Assembly: GCF_032118995.1 (NCBI RefSeq)
Contig: NC_092669.1
Location: 1,782,501 to 1,846,500 of the forward strand
Direction: 5' to 3'
DNA from: Asterias amurensis
Taxonomy: Eukaryota > Echinodermata > Asteroidea > Forcipulatida > Asteriidae
DNA length: 64,000 nucleotides
In this document: positions 4,797 to 23,997 of the stretch, piece by piece
Position numbering within the stretch: the stretch's first letter is position 1
Layout of the letters: every line of letters begins with the position of its first letter
The notes under the pieces: model-generated
The model's database searches: none
What the model saw: the letters and a program-made list of their open reading frames with translations, nothing else
Told to the model about the DNA's origin: nothing
Made by a program: the position numbers and the translations under genes

Positions 4797-7700
4797 TTAG
4801 TAAGTTTTCAAGGAGATTCTAGGCTGCTGTTGTGACGGGGTAGTTGACCCAAAGAGCTGCAACATCAGTCCTTGCATGAAATCAGACTGTGCCATAGCAA
4901 TGTGGTGCACCTGGATCTGCATTGTTGTAACTGTGCAAGAAAAAAAATAGGCAAAATATTAAATTCTTACTTGATTTTAAAGACATTGGACACTTTCGGT
5001 AAACAGACGTATTGTCCAAAAAGGCCCACACTTCGTGTGTAACAAACCTGTGAAAATTTAGGCTCAATCGGTCATCGGAGTCGGGAGAAAAAAAAAGGGA
5101 AAACCCACCCTTGTTTCTGCACGTTTCGCCATGTCATGACATGTGTTTACTATAATCCGTAGTTCTCGATGTCTAGAATTTATAATTGTTTTAATGTTTT
5201 CTCAAAAAGTAAAGCATTTCATGGAATAATATTTCAAGTGAAGTCTTTTACCATTACCTTCTGTAAACCCTGTAAGTTATTTGTAAATCTGTAAACTTTT
5301 ATTTTTGTTTCTGTTTCGAAAGTGTATAATGGCTTTAAAGACACTGGACACGTTTGGTAATTGTCTAAGACCAGTCTTCTCACTTGGTGTATCTCAACAT
5401 ATATGCACAAAATAACATAACCCATTTGTACTCCTCGAGAGAAGCAATTATGGACTTGAGGAAGCAATTATGATTAAGTGCCTATGAAAGGGCACAAGTG
5501 GTGTGACTGACCAGGCCAGGATTCCAACCTACATTCTGTAAATTACAGAACTTGAGCCCCCTCCCTAAGAGTCCCTAGACACCTTGGCTACAACACCCCA
5601 GGCAGTCTGCTAAGCGAACTACTTTTTAAACCTACCTTCCTCACCGGGTGTGTACATGAGTGCCAGGATGAAGTCTTTATACGTCGCTGTGATGGATGCC
5701 AAGAAGGCCTTGACGTCTTGAGAGGTTCTCATCATCCGGCATAACTGCTGTACTATCTTGATGAGCCAAGACATCCTCAATCCTTCATCATATAAAACCT
5801 ACATGAGAACAAGAAAAATGAAAAAACCCAAAATATTCAAACAACCAAACACCCAATGTAATTCTAAAAAATAAGAAATGATGGCCAACGAGACATTTAT
5901 TTGAAAAGTTGCCATGATTAGTTAGTGAGTCCAGTAGGTTGTTGGCCTGGGTCTAGAGGATGGGGCCCCCTGAACCTCCTGGGTGGGTGTCTGAGGATTT
6001 GCAGACTCTCTACATCACCATTAAAACTACTTTTGGTTTTCATTGTTGTAACAAAAATGTATCTTTAAGATTGTCTTTGTTCAACACAAATGAAGTATAC
6101 ATCTCTGTACCAGTATGATATTTGGTTCTGGGGAAAAAAGTAGGAACAATTAAAACTGGAGTACAACAAGGGCTGATCCACACTGGAATCCAGAGGCTTT
6201 GAAAGAACCTCTCATAGCCCTGTTGTCGATTTCACAAAACTCTTCCTAACTTGAGACTAATCTTTGGACTTAGGAAGCATCCCAACCCTGCACTGTAGCA
6301 TGCAGACCTTAAGATTAATCCTAAGTTAGGACGAGTTACTCATCCTAACTCGAGATAAGACGATTCCTAACTCTTTGTGAAATCGACAGCTGGTCTTGGC
6401 CTTGGTGGCCCTTCAAAAGCTTCCTATATGACCATAGAGATGTTTTTAAGTCACTGTTTAATATTAGGCAAGGGGAAACTGGATTCTTGAATGAATGGTT
6501 TGTTGTCGGGATCTGTAAATTGGGTGAACAGAGGTGTTGACTTAAAATTTTTCGTAAGAATGACCTTTGGAAATTGTAAAATAGCCTTTGCCTTCAAAAG
6601 ATAAGAATTCCAGGGGCCAATTTCATAGAGCTGGTTAAGCAAAAAAAGTTGCTTAAGCACGAAAAAAGCTCGCCTATTTTACATATGTTACTGGCCAACA
6701 TTTCATGCCATATACATTGCTTGTGACTGGTATTTAGCTGTTGTTGCATAACAATTGAGTGGAGTCTTCGCCGACAATCTGATTTTATTAAGCAAGGATT
6801 TTTTTGCTTAAGCAAAATTTTGTGCTTAAGCAGCTGTATGAACTTGGGCCCAGACCTAAACATTGTATGCTTACCACAGAGAAGGCCACAATAGTGTTTC
6901 CTAGGTCGGTCATCTTCCCGTTGATGGCTTTACTCCCCAGGACTTTCAGGGTGATGGATTCACCGCACAGAATCAACAACCTAGCAATGTTCTCAATCAG
7001 CCATTCATCTGGGCAACCTGGTTAGAAAACAACATCTAGACGTTAATAGATGGAAATTTTACATCGGGGATAAACTACCTCTAGCTATCGGGTAATCGCA
7101 GTGGTCTAGGTGGCAAGACACTGCTCTAGAATTGCAAAGGTTGTGGGTTCGAAACCAATTGAACTAAAATTTTCACAGGTTTGTTATTTTGTGCATAGTG
7201 TTGAGATACACCAAGTGAGAATACTGGTCTTTGACAAATACCAAAGATTTCCAGTGTCTTTAAAAAGTCTAAACGCAGGTAAAAGTCTTAAAATCATCAT
7301 CCCTGTGCTTCGCAAAACATATTTAGTGAGCACAACTTATCCATGAGAGTATCCCACTTATTTCTGCTGAGCAGAAAGTTGTTAAGCAATATTTGCTGCC
7401 TTAAGTAGCCCTATGAAATTGAGCACTTTGTATAGTGGGTCTAACTTTTAACTGTATCATTTTCTACCTTAAAAACCACCAATTGTGGTAAATCTACTCT
7501 TACTTACCTGTCAACTCTTCCAAGACACTGATGACATCATCATCGCTCCATTCTTTGTGCATAAAGAGAGCTTTGAGTGCCATGGCGATCTCGCTCAGGG
7601 GAGCAATGGCACGATGTCGAGACTCGCCCTCACCGATGGATGGCTCTGCCATACACTCCCAGAAAATCACATCTGGAAATAAATAGTCATCTTGTCAAAT

Positions 7701-15091: not shown

Positions 15092-18000
15092 ATGAAGAGT
15101 CTCGCGATCGTAGCTTTCCTCACCGCTCTGTTGGTCGTGACTTTTGCAAAACCAGCAGAAAAACAGGACGAGCATCAAAGTGACAGAGTGAAAGACACAA
15201 AACTTAGTGACGAGGCTCATTTTGAAGGAAAGGAACACAACGTTGATTATGACCACGAAGCTTTCCTAGGTGAAGATGAAGCGAAAACATTTAAAGACCT
15301 CAGTCCAGAGGAAAGCAGAAAAAGGCTTGGGTAAGTTTTGGATTTTTAAGAATTTTTCAATTTCGTCATGATGATTTTCGGGGTTCGTAAATGCCCTGGG
15401 AGTGGGACTCCCTGAAATAACCATGTTAACTATACGAATTCAGAATTATCCATCAACGTACGTGTTCATTTATCACAGTTAAACCAAAAGATTCCTAAAG
15501 AAAGAGTGTTTTGTCTGCCCTATAAGTTTGTTTCGTTCTTTATTTATTAATATTATTATTATTATGATTTGCTTGTCTTGTAAAGTTTATGTTGTGATTT
15601 GTGAACTGAAGGAAGGAGTTGTGTTTTTGAGATATTTGTTTTGCTTGCATGTGCTTGCCTGTTGTCTGGTTGTTTGTTTTTGGAAATGTGTCTGTACTGT
15701 ATCCTGTATTTTACAAAAAGGAACACCTCATTTGTGTAAAAATTTAGAATCGGTTAAGTTGCATACTATTTTATTTGGATGAAAAAGTTGTGGCGGGATG
15801 CGGAAACTTACTCAAAATTTATGGTTGTTTAACTATAAATTTTCTCTCAACATTTTATTTACCAGTGTGATCGTAGATAAAATTGATACTGACAATGACG
15901 GCTTTGTTACTGAAGAAGAATTGAAGACGTGGATTGAACATCAACAAGTAAGACTTTGTTTTTAAAAAAACTTGAAGTTTTGTTGAAATGGACAGTGCTT
16001 TTCAGGCCAAGTAAAAAATTACCACTGATTGTCCCCTCCTAAACCCTTTTTTTAAAGCCGCATCCTTCATTTAAAAAAATAATTTTTGTTCTCTGAATTT
16101 TTTTTTTACTTGGCTTTGTTTAGCACAATCTTCAACAGCAGTGCACATTTTTGTAAAAATGTTCAGTGTGCCTTTTTTGAAGATGCAAAAAAAAACAGTT
16201 CACAAAGTCATAAATATATTGCCAAAATTATGGTATAAATGCTATGTAAGATGGTCATGTGAGTGAAAAACTGTCAGATGAAAGTACTCTTTTCCTCTCA
16301 AGGTTTCGAATATAAGCCCAGAATATTTGCAAAAGTACAACATAAATTGTTGTGCTATCCTACGTTTGTTGGACATAATTTTTATTTTTGGTTTGTTTGT
16401 GGGGTTCCACGGTGAAAAAAAAAAAAAAATACCAAATGTTAGTGAAACTGAATGCAAAAAGGTAAAAAGATAAACAAATCGCAAGTTTTATGCAATGGTG
16501 CTGTGTTGAAAAAACCCCAATAAAATTATCACATTGGAAGGGGGACATTAAATTTGGGCGAGTAGAAAATAGCTCAAGGTTCGATTTCATAAAGAGCTAA
16601 GATTGATCTTAACTGTGAATCGGTCTGAAATGTCTGTAATACTGACAACACATCTATAAGACAAATCTTCAGTGCTTTGTGAACTCGAGCCCAGCTCATG
16701 TAAATGTTTTGAGTTTTTTTTTGTAAGGGGGGTGGGGTTGGAGATGGTAAAGTAGTGGGGGGGCTTATTACTTCATCCACACAGCACTATTTCATTTCAT
16801 TGCTTTACATTTCTTTTTTTGTCTTTTCTGTTTTCATTTACACTTTGCATTGCTCTTCAGAATAAGTACGCCCATAACGACGCAGAAATTCACTGGAAAA
16901 ATCGTAACCAAATCCTTGATGATATTATGTCCTGGGATGAGTACAATGCCACCACTTATAGTAGCCAAACTGGTAATGTTTATAGCCAATATCCTTTTTT
17001 ACCCACAGAACACTTCATGACTGGCATGAGTTGAACAATGAGGGCATTTTAACCATAGTTCCATCAGTATGCCATGTGACCCAGTTAGATGTGATAGTGC
17101 AAAAACCAATGATCTTAGATGGTGTACACCTTTGGTGAAGTGTCCTGAGTTTTAAATGGGGTAAAGGCAGTTGTCTCCATGCCCCTTATTTACATTTCCC
17201 ATTTGTAAAAAATGCCTGCGTGTATGCAAGGGAAACCTGCCTTGCCGTTACAAAAATATGTTGATGATAAAGAGGACCATCACGTTAAAGCCATGTTGCT
17301 TTTTCACCTGTTTACTTTAAGGCAGTATTCCAATTGGCAGCTATAGCTTCGGCTACCACTGTTGCTACATAGGTATGTTGTTAAGGACGCACTATACTTA
17401 AACGCAGCGATGCATTCCTAGCCAAAGCCATAGCGGCCAATTCGGACAGAGCCTACACTTGGCAAAAAGCCTGGTTCTTTTTTTAAAATAGGGAGTCATT
17501 TGTTGCTGCAATTGCACGCAGGGAACCCAACAAAAATGGTGGCAGCTTACCAACGATGTACACCTTCCTCCATTGAATCCTCAGACTGCATGCTACTATT
17601 GTTGTCACTCTTTTATACACTACAGAAAACATTCATCTTTGACGATGTGATAGGGCTTTGGACGGCCCACAACCCAGATAAGAATGACCTAATGACATGG
17701 GACGAGTATAACTCTACAACATACAGCAACTTACCTGGTGAGAGCAGCTATGGGCACTCACCACACTCTGCTGTTAGAGACGCTCCGTGCAACCCTTATA
17801 CTAAGGCCCCGAAATAGCCCACAGCACCCACAGTAATAGCGTGGTGCCCTGTGCTTTTGCTGTGGTGCCCTTTGCAAAGTTCCGATACAAATTTACATTT
17901 GCCTCATAGAAATGCCCCTTACCAGAGGAAAATTGCTCGCTCCTTCAAAAAATGGAATTCCAGCCCACGATTTCACAAAGAGTTAGGACTCGTCTTATCT

Positions 18001-21000
18001 CGAGTAAGGACGAGTAACTCTTCCTAACTTTGGACTAATCTTAAGGTCTGCATGCTACAGTGTAGGGTTGGGACTCGTCCTAAGTCATAAGATTAGTCTT
18101 AAGTTAGGAAGAGTTTTGTGAAATTGTCGGCAGGCCTTATTCCCTTGACCCACTTTCACACAGGCAACCTCAATCCTTCACTGACCTCAGGTCCTGAATT
18201 AAGGGGTAAAACCACAAGACCGCCAGGCTTGTAGCTCAAAATGTTTACAAGACCCAGTGTTAATATCAAGACCTGAGGCCGACTTCACAAAGAGCTCTGC
18301 TAAGATTGATCGTAACTGCAAATTCAATGTAGTTGCTTAGTAAAGTGTGATGTCACAATGAAACATCACTATGGTGATACTGACAGTTTTTCTTACGATG
18401 GATTTGATTGCTTTGTGAAATCGACCCCCTGGTCCTCTACTCTAAACAAAAGGAATACTGGGGGTAAAGCAAAACAAATGAAATTAAATGAAATTGTAAT
18501 TGGACAAGAAAGTAAAACGACCTTAGCTAAGGGCTGCACGGAGTGGATTCAAACAACACAAGAGGTCCCTGGTCCCGAAGTTGACCCGTTCCCTCAGTGT
18601 CTTAAACCCTGTGTTTACGTTTCAAGCTTGTGCATCAGCTTCGCTAGAAATCTCTAACTGCTTAACTCCTCATGCTGCCATCTCAAAGTCACCCTTCTTG
18701 TTTTTTTTCTTTTCTCTCAAAAGCTCTTCTGTCTTGAATACCCAACCTTTTATTTTTTAAAAAGCACATTTTTTACCAAACAATTGTTATAAAGTTCCTG
18801 TACTTGTATAATACAGCAACTTTGCTTTGTCGAATACACATGATGTCAAAATTGTGGAAGTGAACCGTATACAGTTATTCAGTGCCAAATTGTCAAAGAA
18901 ACTAAGACTAAATTTTGATAATCAGAGACCATTTTTATGAAGTCTGTAAAGCTGACCTTTCTGCTTAGCAGATTTTCCAGTCTATGCTTAACGTTGGCAA
19001 AGCAAATAGCGTACTATCTTTTTGATACATGCTACCTTATCTTCTTGGTTTTGGCAAAAAAATATTCAATAATGTTATCATGTCATGGTGATGGATCCAT
19101 ATTAGGCTCTTCCGTATAATAGTATCGTAGTTACATTATAAAATTCAGAGAGAAATTTATCTTTCCTTCTTCTCGACTTGACCTTGATTTCTTTCATGGA
19201 ATGTTTTCCTGCTAAAAATGCTTTCACTAACCCGACCATCTTCCTTGTCTGTTGCACTGATCAATCACTGGGTCATCATGGGTATTGTGTGGAACTAATA
19301 TTAGAATGCTCCCTCATTGCTTGGCCTCGTGCCTTACCCCCTTATCAATCTCTAGACACCTGTTTCATAATTGGAGACCAATTACAGAGAAGACTTTTTA
19401 CCAAAGACTTTCATTGGCTTGTAAAGTTTGCCGTTGAACCCTGTATTTATTTCATTGTTGAGACATTCCAAAGAAACTCGCATTATTCAAGTTTGTAGAT
19501 TGTATCTGTTGTATACTATTTTCAATGTGTTCTCCAATTATGGAAGTGATGCCAGGGATAACAGTCATCTGCTCAGAAAAACTTTGCCCCCAAAATCCAT
19601 GATTTCTACTTTTAACCCGATGAAAATATGTTTTATATTGTCGCTACAGTGATACGTAGCCATTTTTTTTCATCCATTAGATTGAGTACTGTGTTTGATT
19701 AAATCGCAAAGAAATCAGGATTTTGCGGTATCGTTTTGCAGCAGGATGACCTCTGATTAATCCTTTTTATTATTTATTTGATGAACCATCTTCGTTAACT
19801 GACCTCGCAGAAGCAATACTCGGCAGAGAATGCGGAACAGTCTTGGAAGTCAAGTGGTTTCAAATCACAAGTTGAATGGGACGAGTACCTCCAAAGTGCT
19901 TTCGGAAAAGTTGGTGAGGGAAAGCACACATAAAAAATACCCCAAATTATTTTAAAATTGCCCCAGTCGGATTACCTTGTGGTGTATTACTTGAAATTAA
20001 GTTCATCTCCTTTATGTGACTCGCTGCTGCCACTTCCCAGGTTGTATCAAGAACTTGGGAGTGATTCCTGGCTATACGGCGATTACAAGTTGTATGGTTT
20101 AATAATAAAAATAAAAACCGTAGTTATAACACGACTTTTGCTTCATGATTCTGTGGCTAATTGATGCATAAAAGAAATTGTTGGAAGTAGTTGATCATAC
20201 ATATCACACTTGAGGCATGCACAAATTACCTTGCCAAAATTTTCCTTTGCAAAATTTTCCTTTATCTCCTACCTAAATTAACAATAACATGAATGAATTG
20301 AAACGCCCTGAATTAACATCGCCCCTCCACCTTTACTTAATCAATTAAAACATTTGCATGATGACGTTGAAATTTCGTAATTTGTTATTGTACAAGAAAT
20401 TGCATGAGTTTTCATCAAGTTTGAAACTTAGAAGGGACTGTTGACATAAATGATCGAACATGTAGTAGGTATGTGGCTGTATGGAGTATGAAATTTCACC
20501 CAGTTACTGCACCCACTTACTTGGCCCAATTTCATAGCGCTGCCAAGCACAAAAATTTGCTAGGCATGAAATCTCTTCCTTGATAAAAACAGGATAACCA
20601 GCCAAATATCCACGTGATCTTCAGGATAAGCAAACAACAGCTGAATACTAACCAGTAACAAGCAATATGCAACAAATGGAAATTTAGTCGATAATCCTGT
20701 CTTTATGAAGGAAGAAATTTCATGCTAAGCAAATGTTGGTGCTTAGCAGCTCTATGAAATTGGGCCCTGGTCATAGATTGGATACAGCCAGGGTGCCCTT
20801 TCTGGACTGGCTGGGATAAGGCTTGGAACTTTATCTTTGAGAAGGCAAGGCCATTATCATTTTGCAAAGGAAGTTTGGAGTTTGTTTAAAATCTGGGAAA
20901 CTGGGAAGAAACGGGGTCATAATTCCATGTACAGCTAGCCACATACCTGTTATGATCATGGTGTCAATGTTCCTCTTTAACGTGTGAAAATTTTGTTAAC

Positions 21001-23997
21001 TACTGCACACAATAACTTACACATACATGTATAATACAAACAACATGGAAGTTACCAATTGTAAAAGCTTGCAGGGGGTCAAGAATGGGACCCTTAATAA
21101 CACCACCAGACATGGGGTTCAATCAAAGGACAATTGTTTGAGTGGATTTTTTTAAATTTTGATGACTTCATCTCATGACAACAATAACAAACTTTATATA
21201 AAAAAATATTGTGCATGCACTGCATGTTGTGTGTTAACACTTAATAATGATTTACTCAAAGTTTGTTGACCTCATTACCTAGAAATTCAGTAAATACTAC
21301 AAGTGAAACCGAAATGTCTAATGATAACAACCTTTTACCAATAAACCTTACGCACATGACCTCAATTGCGCAGGGCGCCCTCGACTAGAGATCAATGCAA
21401 TATTACTCATTGCTTACCCTTTGCACTGCGCATACTCTTATTCCTCTTCTAAAATGCCGGTGGCGTCGATGCGTAAGGTCTTTTGTTGCATTTGGTTTGA
21501 GTGGAGAGTGTTCTCCTTTTGACAGTGTTCCACTGGCCAAATGCTAGTTTAAAAAAAAAAACCTTATGACCAGCATCCCTCTTTCATTTAAAATATGGAT
21601 TAGGGAAGAAGATGACTGTCCAGTCACAAGAAAAATGTCCTGTTGGACAGTCACTTCAAATGGTAAAATCTCACAAGAAAATTACTATTTTATTCAATCA
21701 GCTTAAGTGTGGTTACTTACATTACACCTGTACAGGGCTCTAATTTGGGGGGAAAACCCCACAAGACTGCCGGGCTTTTCGCTTTGAATAGGCCAGAATT
21801 TATTTTACAAGAATTTATTGGCACAACACTAAAAAAAATCACAGGCCCTTGGCCGGTGGTCATTTTGCGCCCTGCTGTATCCAGTTTTGCTTTCATTTTC
21901 AATCACTGACGTCAACTTTAAATTTATTAAAAACTAACAGAGGAAGAGTTAAACCAGATGCCTGAGAGCGAACACATGGACTTCACTAAGATGATCCGCA
22001 GAGACAAAGCTCGCTGGAACGCCGCCGACGAGAACAATGACAACCTCCTGTCCAGGGATGAGTTCACCGCTTTCCTCCATCCTGAGAACTTTGAGAGGAT
22101 GAGAGATATCGTTATTCAGGAGACGCTTGAAGATGTGGATAAGAATGGTGATGGGCAGATCTCGCTTGCTGAGTATATCGGTGAGTTGAGTTGAGAGAAT
22201 CTTGTTAATCTCCAAATAAATGGATATATCACTGCTTTTATTTAACAATATGTTCAGGCCTGGAAATAACCCATGACACCCACAGCAAATAGACCGATCC
22301 ATTAGGCCCCGCACGTATTGACCAATTACAACCCATTGCGCAACCAAAAATTCGACAAATTAAGGTACGACATGCGTGCGCAAATGCTTGGCGCTTAAGG
22401 AGTGATATAAGGCCCGGTGACCAGGGGTAATAATGTGAAGCGCTTTGGGACGCCCTCCGGGTGTGAAAAGCGCTATATAAAAACGGGTTATTATTATTAT
22501 TATTATTATTTATTACTTGGCTTGGGAATGAAAAAGTTTTTTTTTTTTTTTTTTTCTTTTTCTTTAGGGCTAACTTTCCTACTAGTTTTAACTTGAATTC
22601 CGATGTTCTGTAAAGAAATGTGTGTTCTTTTAATATTTACAACTGAGGAATTGTTGTTTGTCGAGTGTTTCACAATTTTGAATGTGTGTGTACTTACATA
22701 CTGTATAGATTGATCATGTTTTGTGCTTACTAAATGCTAACTCTTATGATTTTTTAATAGCTGTTAAATATTTTGCTCTGTTTTACAATGTTTTACAAGA
22801 ACAATCGTTCACTGTAGAAGTAAAAATTTTGCTTATATCTTAAAATCTGTAGATTTTAAGGTAAATACCTAGAGGTGTTGTTTTTTATGGTGTTATCTGA
22901 CATTTAGGTAGGCCTATACGTGCTTATTAAATATTGTATGTGATAGTTGTGTTTATACATGTAAGTCTTTCAGGCCTACATTATTGTACCCTTCATTTGG
23001 GGGAGAGGTGGCAGGAGGTCGATTTCTTGTCAAGTTTTCCTGTGTTTTCTATCTTGAAGGATAAACATGTATTGACACTAAATGGTTAAATGAATCTCTT
23101 TTCCGTTAAGGTGATATGTACAAGGAGAACAACGAGGGCGCTGATGAACCCGAGTGGGTGAAGACGGAGCGCGAGCAATTCAGTCAGTTCCGAGACAAGA
23201 ATAAGGATGGTTTCATGGACCTCCAGGAGGTCGGGGAGTGGATTCTACCCACTGATTACGACCACATGGAAGCCGAAGCAAAACATCTTATTTACGAGTC
23301 AGATAAGAACAAGGTACGTTGATTTTAATAGTATGCTAATTTGTCAGTGATAAAGAACATTACACCAATGTGTGTAAGTTATGTTAACTATACCTTTATC
23401 TTTTGGGTGCGTTCGTTTAGCTTCCCTGAGTCGACCCCGGTACGTTCGAATAGCTTTGACGGGGCTCACCCGGGATAGCCCACAGTGCCCTGCTTGTGGA
23501 GTGGGTCACTTGGGGGGTGACCTGAGGTGCATGCCGTCACCACAAGAGGGCGAGTGTGATCGTTGGATTAGCTCTTGTCAGGGGCTCACCCGAGTGAGCA
23601 CCGCGGGGTCGACCCAGGGAAGCTTATCGAACCCACCCTTTATAATTGCAGCACCTTGTTCATTCAAGAAGTAGATTTGTTCAGGCCTAGAATTACATGT
23701 AGAGGCCCTGGAGGCCATAGCCTGTTGCCCCATGTCTTGACCGTGGTAACACTTCAAAAGTTTGCCGTGCCCTTTGCCAAATGAAAATGGCCATGCCCTC
23801 TTAGAGATGAAATTCCAGGCCAGAGTCCATAAGTCGCTCATGCCTTTTCGAGTGACTCAACTTTAATTATCTCCATCCTCTTCTCATTACAGGACAAGAA
23901 GCTAACGAAGGAAGAGATAGTTGACAAGTACGACCTCTTCGTCGGAAGCCAGGCCACTAACTACGGAGAAAGTCTTCAACGACACGACGAGTTTTAG
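15092..23997 (+). CDS. CALU: Calumenin-like CREC-family EF-hand protein of the secretory pathway
   Basis: Exons: 15092-15330, 15866-15947, one of 16861-16972 / 17626-17737 / 19811-19913, then 21941-22180, 23111-23313, 23893-23997. Protein of 326 or 323 aa (human calumenin 315). Residues 1-19 form a signal peptide ([19 protein letters not shown]). The block [10 protein letters not shown]-type (here [20 protein letters not shown]) is typical of the family. EF loops: [12 protein letters not shown] (EF1), the variable exon (EF2), [12 protein letters not shown] (EF3), [12 protein letters not shown] (EF4), [12 protein letters not shown] (EF5), [12 protein letters not shown] (EF6). The C-terminus is HDEF, the family's ER-retention tail. 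Calumenin binds several Ca2+ weakly in the ER/Golgi lumen and acts as a chaperone-like regulator. ATG at 15092 is chosen because it alone opens the signal peptide. The stop is TAG at 23995-23997. Confidence 0.95.
16861..16972 (+). CDS. CALU: Calumenin alternative exon 3a (EF-hand 2 variant)
   Basis: Bounded by CTCTTCAG| and |GTAATG. It encodes [20 protein letters not shown], then [17 protein letters not shown], 37 codons plus one base. The segment aligns with human calumenin 'WIYEDVERQWKGHD...VSWEEYKNATYG'. Its 12-residue loop would be [12 protein letters not shown], which lacks acidic ligands at positions 1 and 3, so Ca2+ binding is probably weak or lost. Confidence 0.85.
17626..17737 (+). 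CDS. CALU: Calumenin alternative exon 3b (EF-hand 2 variant)
   Basis: Bounded by ACACTACAG| and |GTGAGA, exactly the same length as 3a (112 bases). It encodes [20 protein letters not shown], then [17 protein letters not shown]. The loop [12 protein letters not shown] keeps oxygen ligands at positions 1, 3, 5 and 12, so this is the variant most likely to bind Ca2+. Confidence 0.85.
17967..18133. mobile_element. Foldback MITE (family G), plus a diverged relative
   Basis: GATTTCACAAAGAGTTAGGA at the left and TTAGGAAGAGTTTTGTGAAAT at the right, about 167 bp, matching the 6217 copy in reverse. A diverged relative follows at about 18280-18427 ('CTTCACAAAGAGCTCTGC' to 'GCTTTGTGAAATCGACCCC'), and a weaker one lies at 16577-16690. 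All are in calumenin introns. Confidence 0.65.
19811..19913 (+). CDS. CALU: Calumenin alternative exon 3c (EF-hand 2 variant)
   Basis: Bounded by CCTCGCAG| and |GTGAGG, 103 bases (34 codons plus one base), three codons shorter than 3a and 3b. It encodes [20 protein letters not shown], then [14 protein letters not shown]. The loop [12 protein letters not shown] has Gly and Lys at two ligand positions, so it should not bind Ca2+ normally. The TSWDEY-type core (here VEWDEY) and identical phases mark it as a sibling of 3a and 3b. Confidence 0.78.
20522..20767. mobile_element. Foldback MITE type A1
   Basis: TGGCCCAATTTCATAGCGCT to the inverted AGCTCTATGAAATTGGGCCC, 246 bp, in the calumenin intron after exon 3c. 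Paired CTTCCTTGATAAAAAC and TTTATGAAGGAAG blocks show the same architecture as the 452, 7949 and 8575 copies. Confidence 0.75.
22285..22505. repeat. Mosaic of a MITE end and a SINE family 2 tail
   Basis: Bases 22289-22375 match one end of the element at 39709 ('AATAGACCGATCCATTAGGC...GACATGCGTGCGC'). Bases 22390-22505 match the 3' tail of SINE family 2 ('GTGAAGCGCTTTGGGA', then an (ATT)n run). The SINE tail begins inside the MITE sequence, so it probably inserted there and is 5'-truncated. A T-run follows at 22538-22555. Confidence 0.55.

Follow-up and report, generated by a model that had tools for sequence, protein, structure and literature searches.

A calumenin gene with three versions of one exon

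The DNA considered here is a 64-kb stretch of the starfish Asterias amurensis (the window, whose numbering is used throughout) and carries, on its plus strand, a gene predicted to encode calumenin. The coding part of its first exon (E1, 239 nt from the ATG, 15092-15330) specifies an N-terminus that is hydrophobic and, judged by eye, signal-like, followed by the region preceding EF-hand 1, which is itself encoded by the single-copy exon E2 (15866-15947, 82 nt; Pfam EF-hand, E 1.3e-6), ending in phase 0. Next come three candidate alternative exons, each bordered by AG and GT, entered in phase 0 and left in phase 1, that encode versions of EF-hand 2: 3a (16861-16972, 112 nt), 3b (17626-17737, 112 nt) and the most diverged copy, 3c (19811-19913, 103 nt), with introns of 653 nt between 3a and 3b and 2,073 nt between 3b and 3c. 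E4 (21941-22180, 240 nt) requires one base from the preceding exon and encodes EF-hands 3 and 4; E5 (23111-23313, 203 nt) adds EF-hand 5 and the start of EF-hand 6, and E6 (23893-23997, 105 nt) the rest of EF-hand 6, the C-terminal HDEF and the stop. The coordinates, lengths, phases and remainder of one on division by three that the initial annotation had assigned to the three copies proved exact to the base.

With its signal-like N-terminus, six EF-hands (loops listed by hand) and C-terminal HDEF, the predicted protein bears the traits of the CREC family, a feature set that we took from the excerpted text of PMC12516920. Pfam EF-hand models match the whole predicted proteins, and a search of solved structures at E up to 0.001 returned 30 distinct sequences from EF-hand proteins such as troponin C, none of which bore the name calumenin. 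Searching the genome with the complete protein (E up to 10) gave one match per flanking exon plus two weaker paralogues, and only one calumenin gene is detected in the genome. We take the paralogues, the only other CREC-like genes found, to be RCN2-like and Cab45-like; the gene itself may be an orthologue of CALU rather than of RCN1 or RCN3. Viral contigs searched with the E4 peptide yielded 13 pattern matches, none confirmed, and the ER-stress promoter box TGACGTGK occurs twice, versus 1.8 expected occurrences.

How closely are the three copies related? In local BLOSUM62 alignments, the score of 3a and 3b is 81, where shuffled peptides average 21.8 (p 0.0002, the lowest value that 5,000 shuffles allow); 3a and 3c reach 43 (p 0.0008) and 3b and 3c reach 31 (p 0.006), both again compared with shuffled peptides. 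Synonymous sites between 3a and 3b are saturated (pS 1.05) with pN at 0.34, and the same codon is used for 5 of the 14 residues that are identical among 37; 3a and 3b therefore have the look of old copies whose protein sequence is under constraint. Since 899 of 5,555 windows of 111 nt in the surrounding introns (16%) are open in a given frame, three old, open and phase-correct copies would not be expected without selection. We also scanned both strands of the window for an AG, an open frame and a GT enclosing 91-130 nt with a remainder of one on division by three, and scored the resulting 862 candidates while leaving out the exon being judged. The score of 3a was reached by five candidates and that of 3b by seven, all of them the three exons or their splice-site variants; 13 reached the score of 3c, of which the 12 listed correspond to 3a or 3b, to a 3c variant, or to parts of E4 and E5. 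The latter score 45-47 against the RCN2-like reference, above the 43 that 3c attains against its best reference match, 3a, so membership of 3c rests also on its place, phase and splice sites. By sequence alone, the homology of 3c is weak: a genome search with its peptide (E up to 10) recovered only 3c itself and neither 3a nor 3b, and the corresponding search with 3a gave no link to 3c.

A fourth copy was absent from the best 25 of 69 candidate exons on the plus strand between 15331 and 23892, in a scan that is blind to copies broken by stops, and from the best five candidates listed on the minus strand. Whole-genome protein searches (E up to 10; 14 of 14, 2 of 2 and 3 of 3 first-look candidates scored) returned the gene's own exons and the two paralogues, and no retrocopy that would reveal the splice form in use. 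Direct repeats at 16596-16692 and 18299-18428 were considered as a trace of intronic duplication and rejected: the first is a dispersed repeat with at least 46 matches, itself included, on many chromosomes (40 of 222 candidates scored).

Reading frame and choice among the copies

Of the eight possible combinations of the three exons, the three that contain a single copy remain open to the HDEF stop, giving products of 326 (3a), 326 (3b) and 323 (3c) amino acids. The other five run into a premature stop, located 431 nt (no copy), 538, 481 and 481 nt (the three pairs) and 641 nt (all three) upstream of the last exon junction. The earlier claim that exactly one copy keeps the frame, whereas none, two or three shift it, is thus borne out over all combinations. 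The stronger wording, that the frame forces the use of one copy, holds only in so far as wrong products would be penalised by frame and nonsense-mediated decay; it leaves unexplained how the spliceosome comes to choose one.

Pillmann et al. 2011 (PMC3228551, in its excerpted text) recognise clusters of mutually exclusive exons by length, with a default tolerance of 20 amino acids, by splice sites and reading frame, and by homology. On each count the starfish exons conform, being 112, 112 and 103 nt long, flanked by GT-AG introns with phase 0 in and 1 out, frameshifted to a stop in all five other combinations, and homologous, clearly for 3a and 3b and weakly for 3c. We consider it probable (about 0.8), on the evidence of the genomic sequence, that 3a, 3b and 3c constitute a cluster of candidate mutually exclusive exons in the single detected calumenin gene. 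We envision that each mature mRNA would take one of the three, that transcripts containing no copy or more than one would meet an early stop and be removed by nonsense-mediated decay, and that the choice would exchange 34-37 residues, together with a split codon, in the surroundings of EF-hand 2 in a secretory-pathway calcium protein.

By what means might a single copy be chosen? Steric exclusion was rejected, the introns of 653 and 2,073 nt being too long, as was incompatibility of U2 and U12 sites, which by eye look U2-type; given these long introns and U2-type sites, no exclusion mechanism is visible beyond frame and nonsense-mediated decay. The array resembles Dscam-type clusters in consisting of tandem homologous exons, one of which enters each mRNA in the Dscam-type case (PMC6071210, excerpted text), but differs from their docking and selector arrangement: competing pairing with a shared docking sequence did not exceed shuffled controls, 12, 24 and 12 of 40 shuffles reaching the observed values.

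Two other accounts of the locus bear on this reading. One would have only 3a and 3b in use and 3c decaying or very rare, as might be suspected from an exon that falls 9 nt short of the others, no longer has the TTYS tail, finds nothing but itself in the genome (E up to 10) and is least similar to 3b. Its donor is also the weakest, agreeing with the consensus at 5 of 9 positions against 6 of 9 in both 3a and 3b, and its acceptor has 11 pyrimidines in 17 positions (13 in 3a, 12 in 3b), so that 3c could be rarely used. Nonetheless, 3c is still open in frame with the right phase and intact AG and GT. Of intronic windows this size, roughly one in six is open in a given frame, and fewer would have the phase and both sites as well; among the references, 3c matches 3a best, even if the E4 and E5 stretches score higher against the RCN2-like one. 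We regard the loss of 3c from use as rather unlikely. The other account replaces alternative internal exons by alternative promoters or terminators, or by several small genes, and could appeal to the two calumenin genes reported on one chromosome or scaffold in sea urchin (PMC3034685, excerpted text). The starfish locus offered no support for it; 3a, 3b and 3c are internal in phase and open between splice sites, and the flanking exons are matched once each genome-wide (E up to 10), barring the two weaker paralogues, which makes this account highly improbable.

Human CALU and the origin of the array

Human CALU belongs to the same gene family and likewise offers a choice of homologous versions of an N-terminal EF-hand region. 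That its exons 4 and 5 (also called 3a and 3b) are mutually exclusive, as the initial annotation had stated, has been demonstrated with full-length mRNA and single-molecule RNA FISH (PMC5877393, excerpted text). The two copies are reported to lie 73 nt apart and to share 64% residue identity, and they are listed among U2AF-regulated duplicated exons. The human exon, at about 194 nt as deduced from probe coordinates in that text, has the combined length of starfish E2 and a 112-nt copy (194 = 82 + 112), and therefore appears to combine the counterparts of E2 and E3 in a single exon that encodes both EF-hand 1 and EF-hand 2. The array in starfish differs in its three copies of 112, 112 and 103 nt, its restriction to EF-hand 2, its long introns and its degenerate loops, and the suggestion that the same segment is duplicated in both animals is not supported. 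The human copy peptides are identical at 42 of 65 positions (64.6%), in agreement with the 64% figure, and both have canonical EF-hand 2 loops; their EF-hand 1 halves are identical at 21 of 28 positions and so also differ, which argues that the human unit includes EF-hand 1. Against the two human copies, 3a has 11 and 12 identities in 36 positions, 3b 12 and 12 in 36, and 3c 11 and 10 in 34; no starfish copy prefers either human copy.

Is the array nonetheless an ancestral deuterostome arrangement, held in common with vertebrate CALU and grown from two copies to three? Family and protein region are shared, E2 plus a 112-nt copy equals the presumed human exon, and a tree of 37 columns did not reject orthologous pairing of starfish and human copies at 5% (AU p 0.083 and 0.084, KH 0.19, SH 0.24). 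Such pairing was nevertheless worse by about 3.2 log-likelihood units, and 3a and 3b grouped in 73% of bootstraps; the same tree did not favour a union of the starfish copies over other topologies (AU p 0.565 with all three grouped, 0.575 with 3c beside the human pair, 0.415 with 3b beside it). The duplicated units are also unlike, 112 nt in starfish against about 194 nt in human as deduced, so that the vertebrate event does not share exon boundaries with the starfish one. Moreover, the intron that separates E2 from the E3 position is missing from the RCN2-like and Cab45-like paralogues and, as far as can be deduced, from human CALU, and shared ancestry would require the loss of duplicated EF-hand 1 exons. 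We hold a common ancient arrangement to be unlikely, and the earlier proposal that it is ancient and was expanded in this lineage finds no support here.

Independent duplication is likelier, if not proven, on the basis of unit boundaries and the two paralogues of one genome. Probably, the EF-hand 2 exon had already been split from EF-hand 1 by the extra intron when its duplication in the starfish lineage produced the array, and a separate vertebrate event would have copied EF-hands 1 and 2 together.

EF-hand 2 and calcium

The earlier statement that each copy encodes a version of EF-hand 2 stands by position, but not by profile: none of the three peptides was matched by Pfam at E up to 10 (its filters drop most hits above about 0.1), whereas the EF-hand 1 peptide was matched at E 1.3e-6. 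A canonical EF-hand has oxygen ligands at loop positions 1, 3, 5 and 12 and Gly at position 6. All four ligands are found in 3b, with Asp at position 6; 3a has three of them, lacking position 3, and 3c two, lacking positions 3 and 5. Gly at position 6 is absent from all three copies, whose EF-hand 2 is thus degenerate rather than canonical. Since the full ligand set occurs only in 3b, exon choice may set calcium binding at EF-hand 2: a weak site should be kept by 3b, and 3a and 3c probably have none.

More tentatively, and with somewhat less than even confidence, we envision that starfish and vertebrates independently made the N-terminal EF-hand region of calumenin a splice switch, three-way in starfish, with 3b keeping a calcium site, 3a and 3c presenting non-binding surfaces, and splicing tuning the calcium response. 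It is a recognised pattern that human genes and their fly orthologues have undergone tandem exon duplication independently (PMC9741552, excerpted text). If differently bounded units affect one and the same part of calumenin, selection on its EF-hand 1/2 region would be indicated, and the three natural variants would offer a way to probe the role of that region. A choice of comparable consequence is known from the unrelated gene OGDH, where the mutually exclusive exons 4a and 4b decide the presence of a calcium site (PMC7969005, excerpted text), a switch that is reported there and that the loops of 3a, 3b and 3c would predict for starfish calumenin.

Three alternative EF-hand 2 exons

Every intron of the plus-strand calumenin gene has GT-AG borders. 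The coding part of E1 (15092-15330) is followed by E2 (15866-15947), which encodes EF-hand 1, by the three alternative EF-hand 2 exons 3a (16861-16972, 112 nt), 3b (17626-17737, 112 nt) and 3c (19811-19913, 103 nt), and by E4 (21941-22180, EF-hands 3 and 4), E5 (23111-23313) and E6 with the stop (23893-23997); all these coordinates were re-derived from the sequence. The alternative exons are each 1 mod 3 in length. Translation of the eight possible combinations left those with a single copy open, with 326 (3a), 326 (3b) and 323 (3c) residues and the C-terminus RHDEF; in each of the other five, a premature stop lies 431 to 641 nt before the last junction. Under the usual NMD rule, a stop that far upstream marks an mRNA for decay. 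Thus, the coordinates and the argument that only one copy preserves the frame are borne out. That the frame "forces" this outcome is correct insofar as wrong products would be useless, but the way in which one copy gets chosen is not explained by frame.

We consider a candidate cluster of mutually exclusive exons the best explanation as a whole, with a probability of about 0.8. Peptide similarity exceeds that of shuffled peptides for 3a/3b (p 0.0002), 3a/3c (p 0.0008) and 3b/3c (p 0.006). Both strands of the window were scanned for candidate exons (AG, open frame and GT, 91-130 nt, 1 mod 3; n = 862), which were scored without the exon under test. The score of 3a was reached by five candidates and that of 3b by seven, all being the three exons or their splice-site variants; that of 3c was reached by 13, and the 12 of these listed are 3a, 3b, a 3c variant, or stretches of E4 or E5. 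No fourth copy emerged from the 862. Searching the genome at E up to 10 with the peptide of 3a returned 3a and 3b; with that of 3c, it returned 3c alone. Judged by these ranks and searches, 3a and 3b are clear sisters, and the membership of 3c rests on position, phase, splice sites and the WDEY core more than on overall similarity. The weak genome-search result counts toward an unlikely alternative, whereby only 3a and 3b are used and 3c is decaying or very rare. Long maintenance best explains why there are three open copies with correct phase and intact splice sites, because synonymous sites between 3a and 3b are saturated (pS 1.05, past the range of the method) at a pN of 0.34, and only 899 of 5,555 intronic windows of exon size (16%) are open in any given frame. 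Exons 3a and 3b share 60 of 112 bases (23/37, 21/37 and 15/37 by codon position).

The cluster is real and well observed, and its kind is already known; its isoforms may already be in RefSeq. The titles and abstract openings listed in searches of the open-licence literature do not mention the starfish array, nor do the available portions of PMC3034685, PMC9177970, PMC9741552, PMC9013439, PMC5740500 and PMC6071210. What is new is that a calumenin gene carries three copies of a small exon whose calcium loops differ.

Calcium loops

In the twelve-residue loop of EF-hand 2, position 3 is Ile in 3a and Gly in 3c, and 3c also has Lys at position 5; 3b carries oxygen-bearing residues at 1, 3, 5 and 12, with Asp instead of Gly at 6. 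From these residues, a weak calcium site is predicted for isoform 3b and none for 3a or 3c. Three points count against this assignment: 3b fails the Pfam models as well, non-canonical EF-hand loops sometimes bind calcium, and every copy has the exit helix WDEY, which probably preserves the fold. None of the three copies gave a Pfam match at E up to 10, under filters that drop most matches above about 0.1; the EF-hand 1 peptide did in the same search. Mutually exclusive choice can switch a calcium site, as described for OGDH exons 4a/4b (PMC7969005); for calumenin, such a switch is suggested by the loops.

A genome search with the full protein returned its own exons and two further loci, on contigs C18 and C15; to judge by their peptides, these are Cab45-like and RCN2-like. 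By eye, the EF-hand 2 loops of both paralogues appear canonical.

Origin of the array

The initial annotation suggested that the array is ancient and was expanded in this lineage, and placed it in the same segment as the human CALU pair. In MCF-7 cells, full-length sequencing and RNA FISH did show that exons 4 and 5 of human CALU exclude each other (PMC5877393). The probe positions in that paper have the alternative exon lying between nt 1188 and nt 1383, which implies 194 nt. The two human exons are 64% identical (PMC5737536). The human EF-hand 1+2 peptides are identical at 42 of 65 residues (64.6%) and differ in the EF-hand 1 half as well (21/28 identical), in agreement with a human unit that includes EF-hand 1. 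Its implied 194 nt equal 82 + 112, that is, starfish E2 plus E3 without the intron, whereas the starfish copied only the second, 112-nt part. Mutual exclusivity of the human pair is supported; "same segment" is not.

Neither paralogue (RCN2-like, L024 5251-5424; Cab45-like, L023 8381-8530 with 7600-7632) has a break at the E2/E3 intron point, and the introns of both lie at positions unlike those of calumenin. The simplest history would be that the extra E2/E3 intron was gained in the starfish lineage and the small EF-hand 2 exon duplicated afterwards. An ancient array common to starfish and vertebrates would require the loss of additional EF-hand 1 exons. In a tree of 37 columns with the human copies included, 3a and 3b grouped in 73% of bootstraps. 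Orthologous starfish-human pairings are not rejected at 5% (AU p 0.083 and 0.084; KH 0.19; SH 0.24), and their RELL proportions are 0.013 and 0.015. Three other arrangements are indistinguishable: all starfish copies together (AU p 0.565), or the human pair joined by 3c (0.575) or by 3b (0.415). The tree thus speaks weakly against orthologous pairing; antiquity is compatible with the test, but the differing units and the paralogues uninterrupted at this point argue against it. PMC9741552 documents orthologous human and fly genes in which tandem exon duplications arose convergently.

Choice of a single copy and neighbouring repeats

How might one copy be selected? Steric exclusion is ruled out, because the introns between copies (653 and 2,073 nt) leave donor and branch point far enough apart; the human exons are separated by an intron of 73 nt. 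The splice sites look U2-type by eye. Docking sequences pairing with both inter-copy introns did not exceed shuffles (12, 24 and 12 of 40 shuffles attained the observed values) in a search of one genome with low power. This leaves regulated splicing, which would pick one copy, backed by NMD, which would remove wrong products. Many human clusters may work in the same way: in 377 (60%), exon length is not a multiple of three (PMC5740500).

A dispersed repeat at 16570-16710 has at least 46 genome matches including itself, on many chromosomes (40 of 222 candidates scored), and two direct repeats tie 18281-18428 to it. The intron between 3c and E4 holds a MITE-like inverted repeat (20523-20766) with 90-nt arms, 83% complementary and 64 nt apart.

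Elsewhere in the genome, which has 23 contigs, contig C23 (16,427 bp) is mitochondrial, with COX1 and the small rRNA opposite in orientation to ND1 and the large rRNA. Sea stars have this gene order and 22 chromosomes, which the remaining 22 contigs match; the animal is read as a starfish on these grounds. On C5, the mitochondrial genes COX1 and ND1 give similar scores at two nuclear places (658874-662216 and 675294-678636), both in mitochondrial orientation. The spacing of 16.4 kb is close to the length of one mitochondrial genome, as would fit either a tandem numt or an artefact of assembly.
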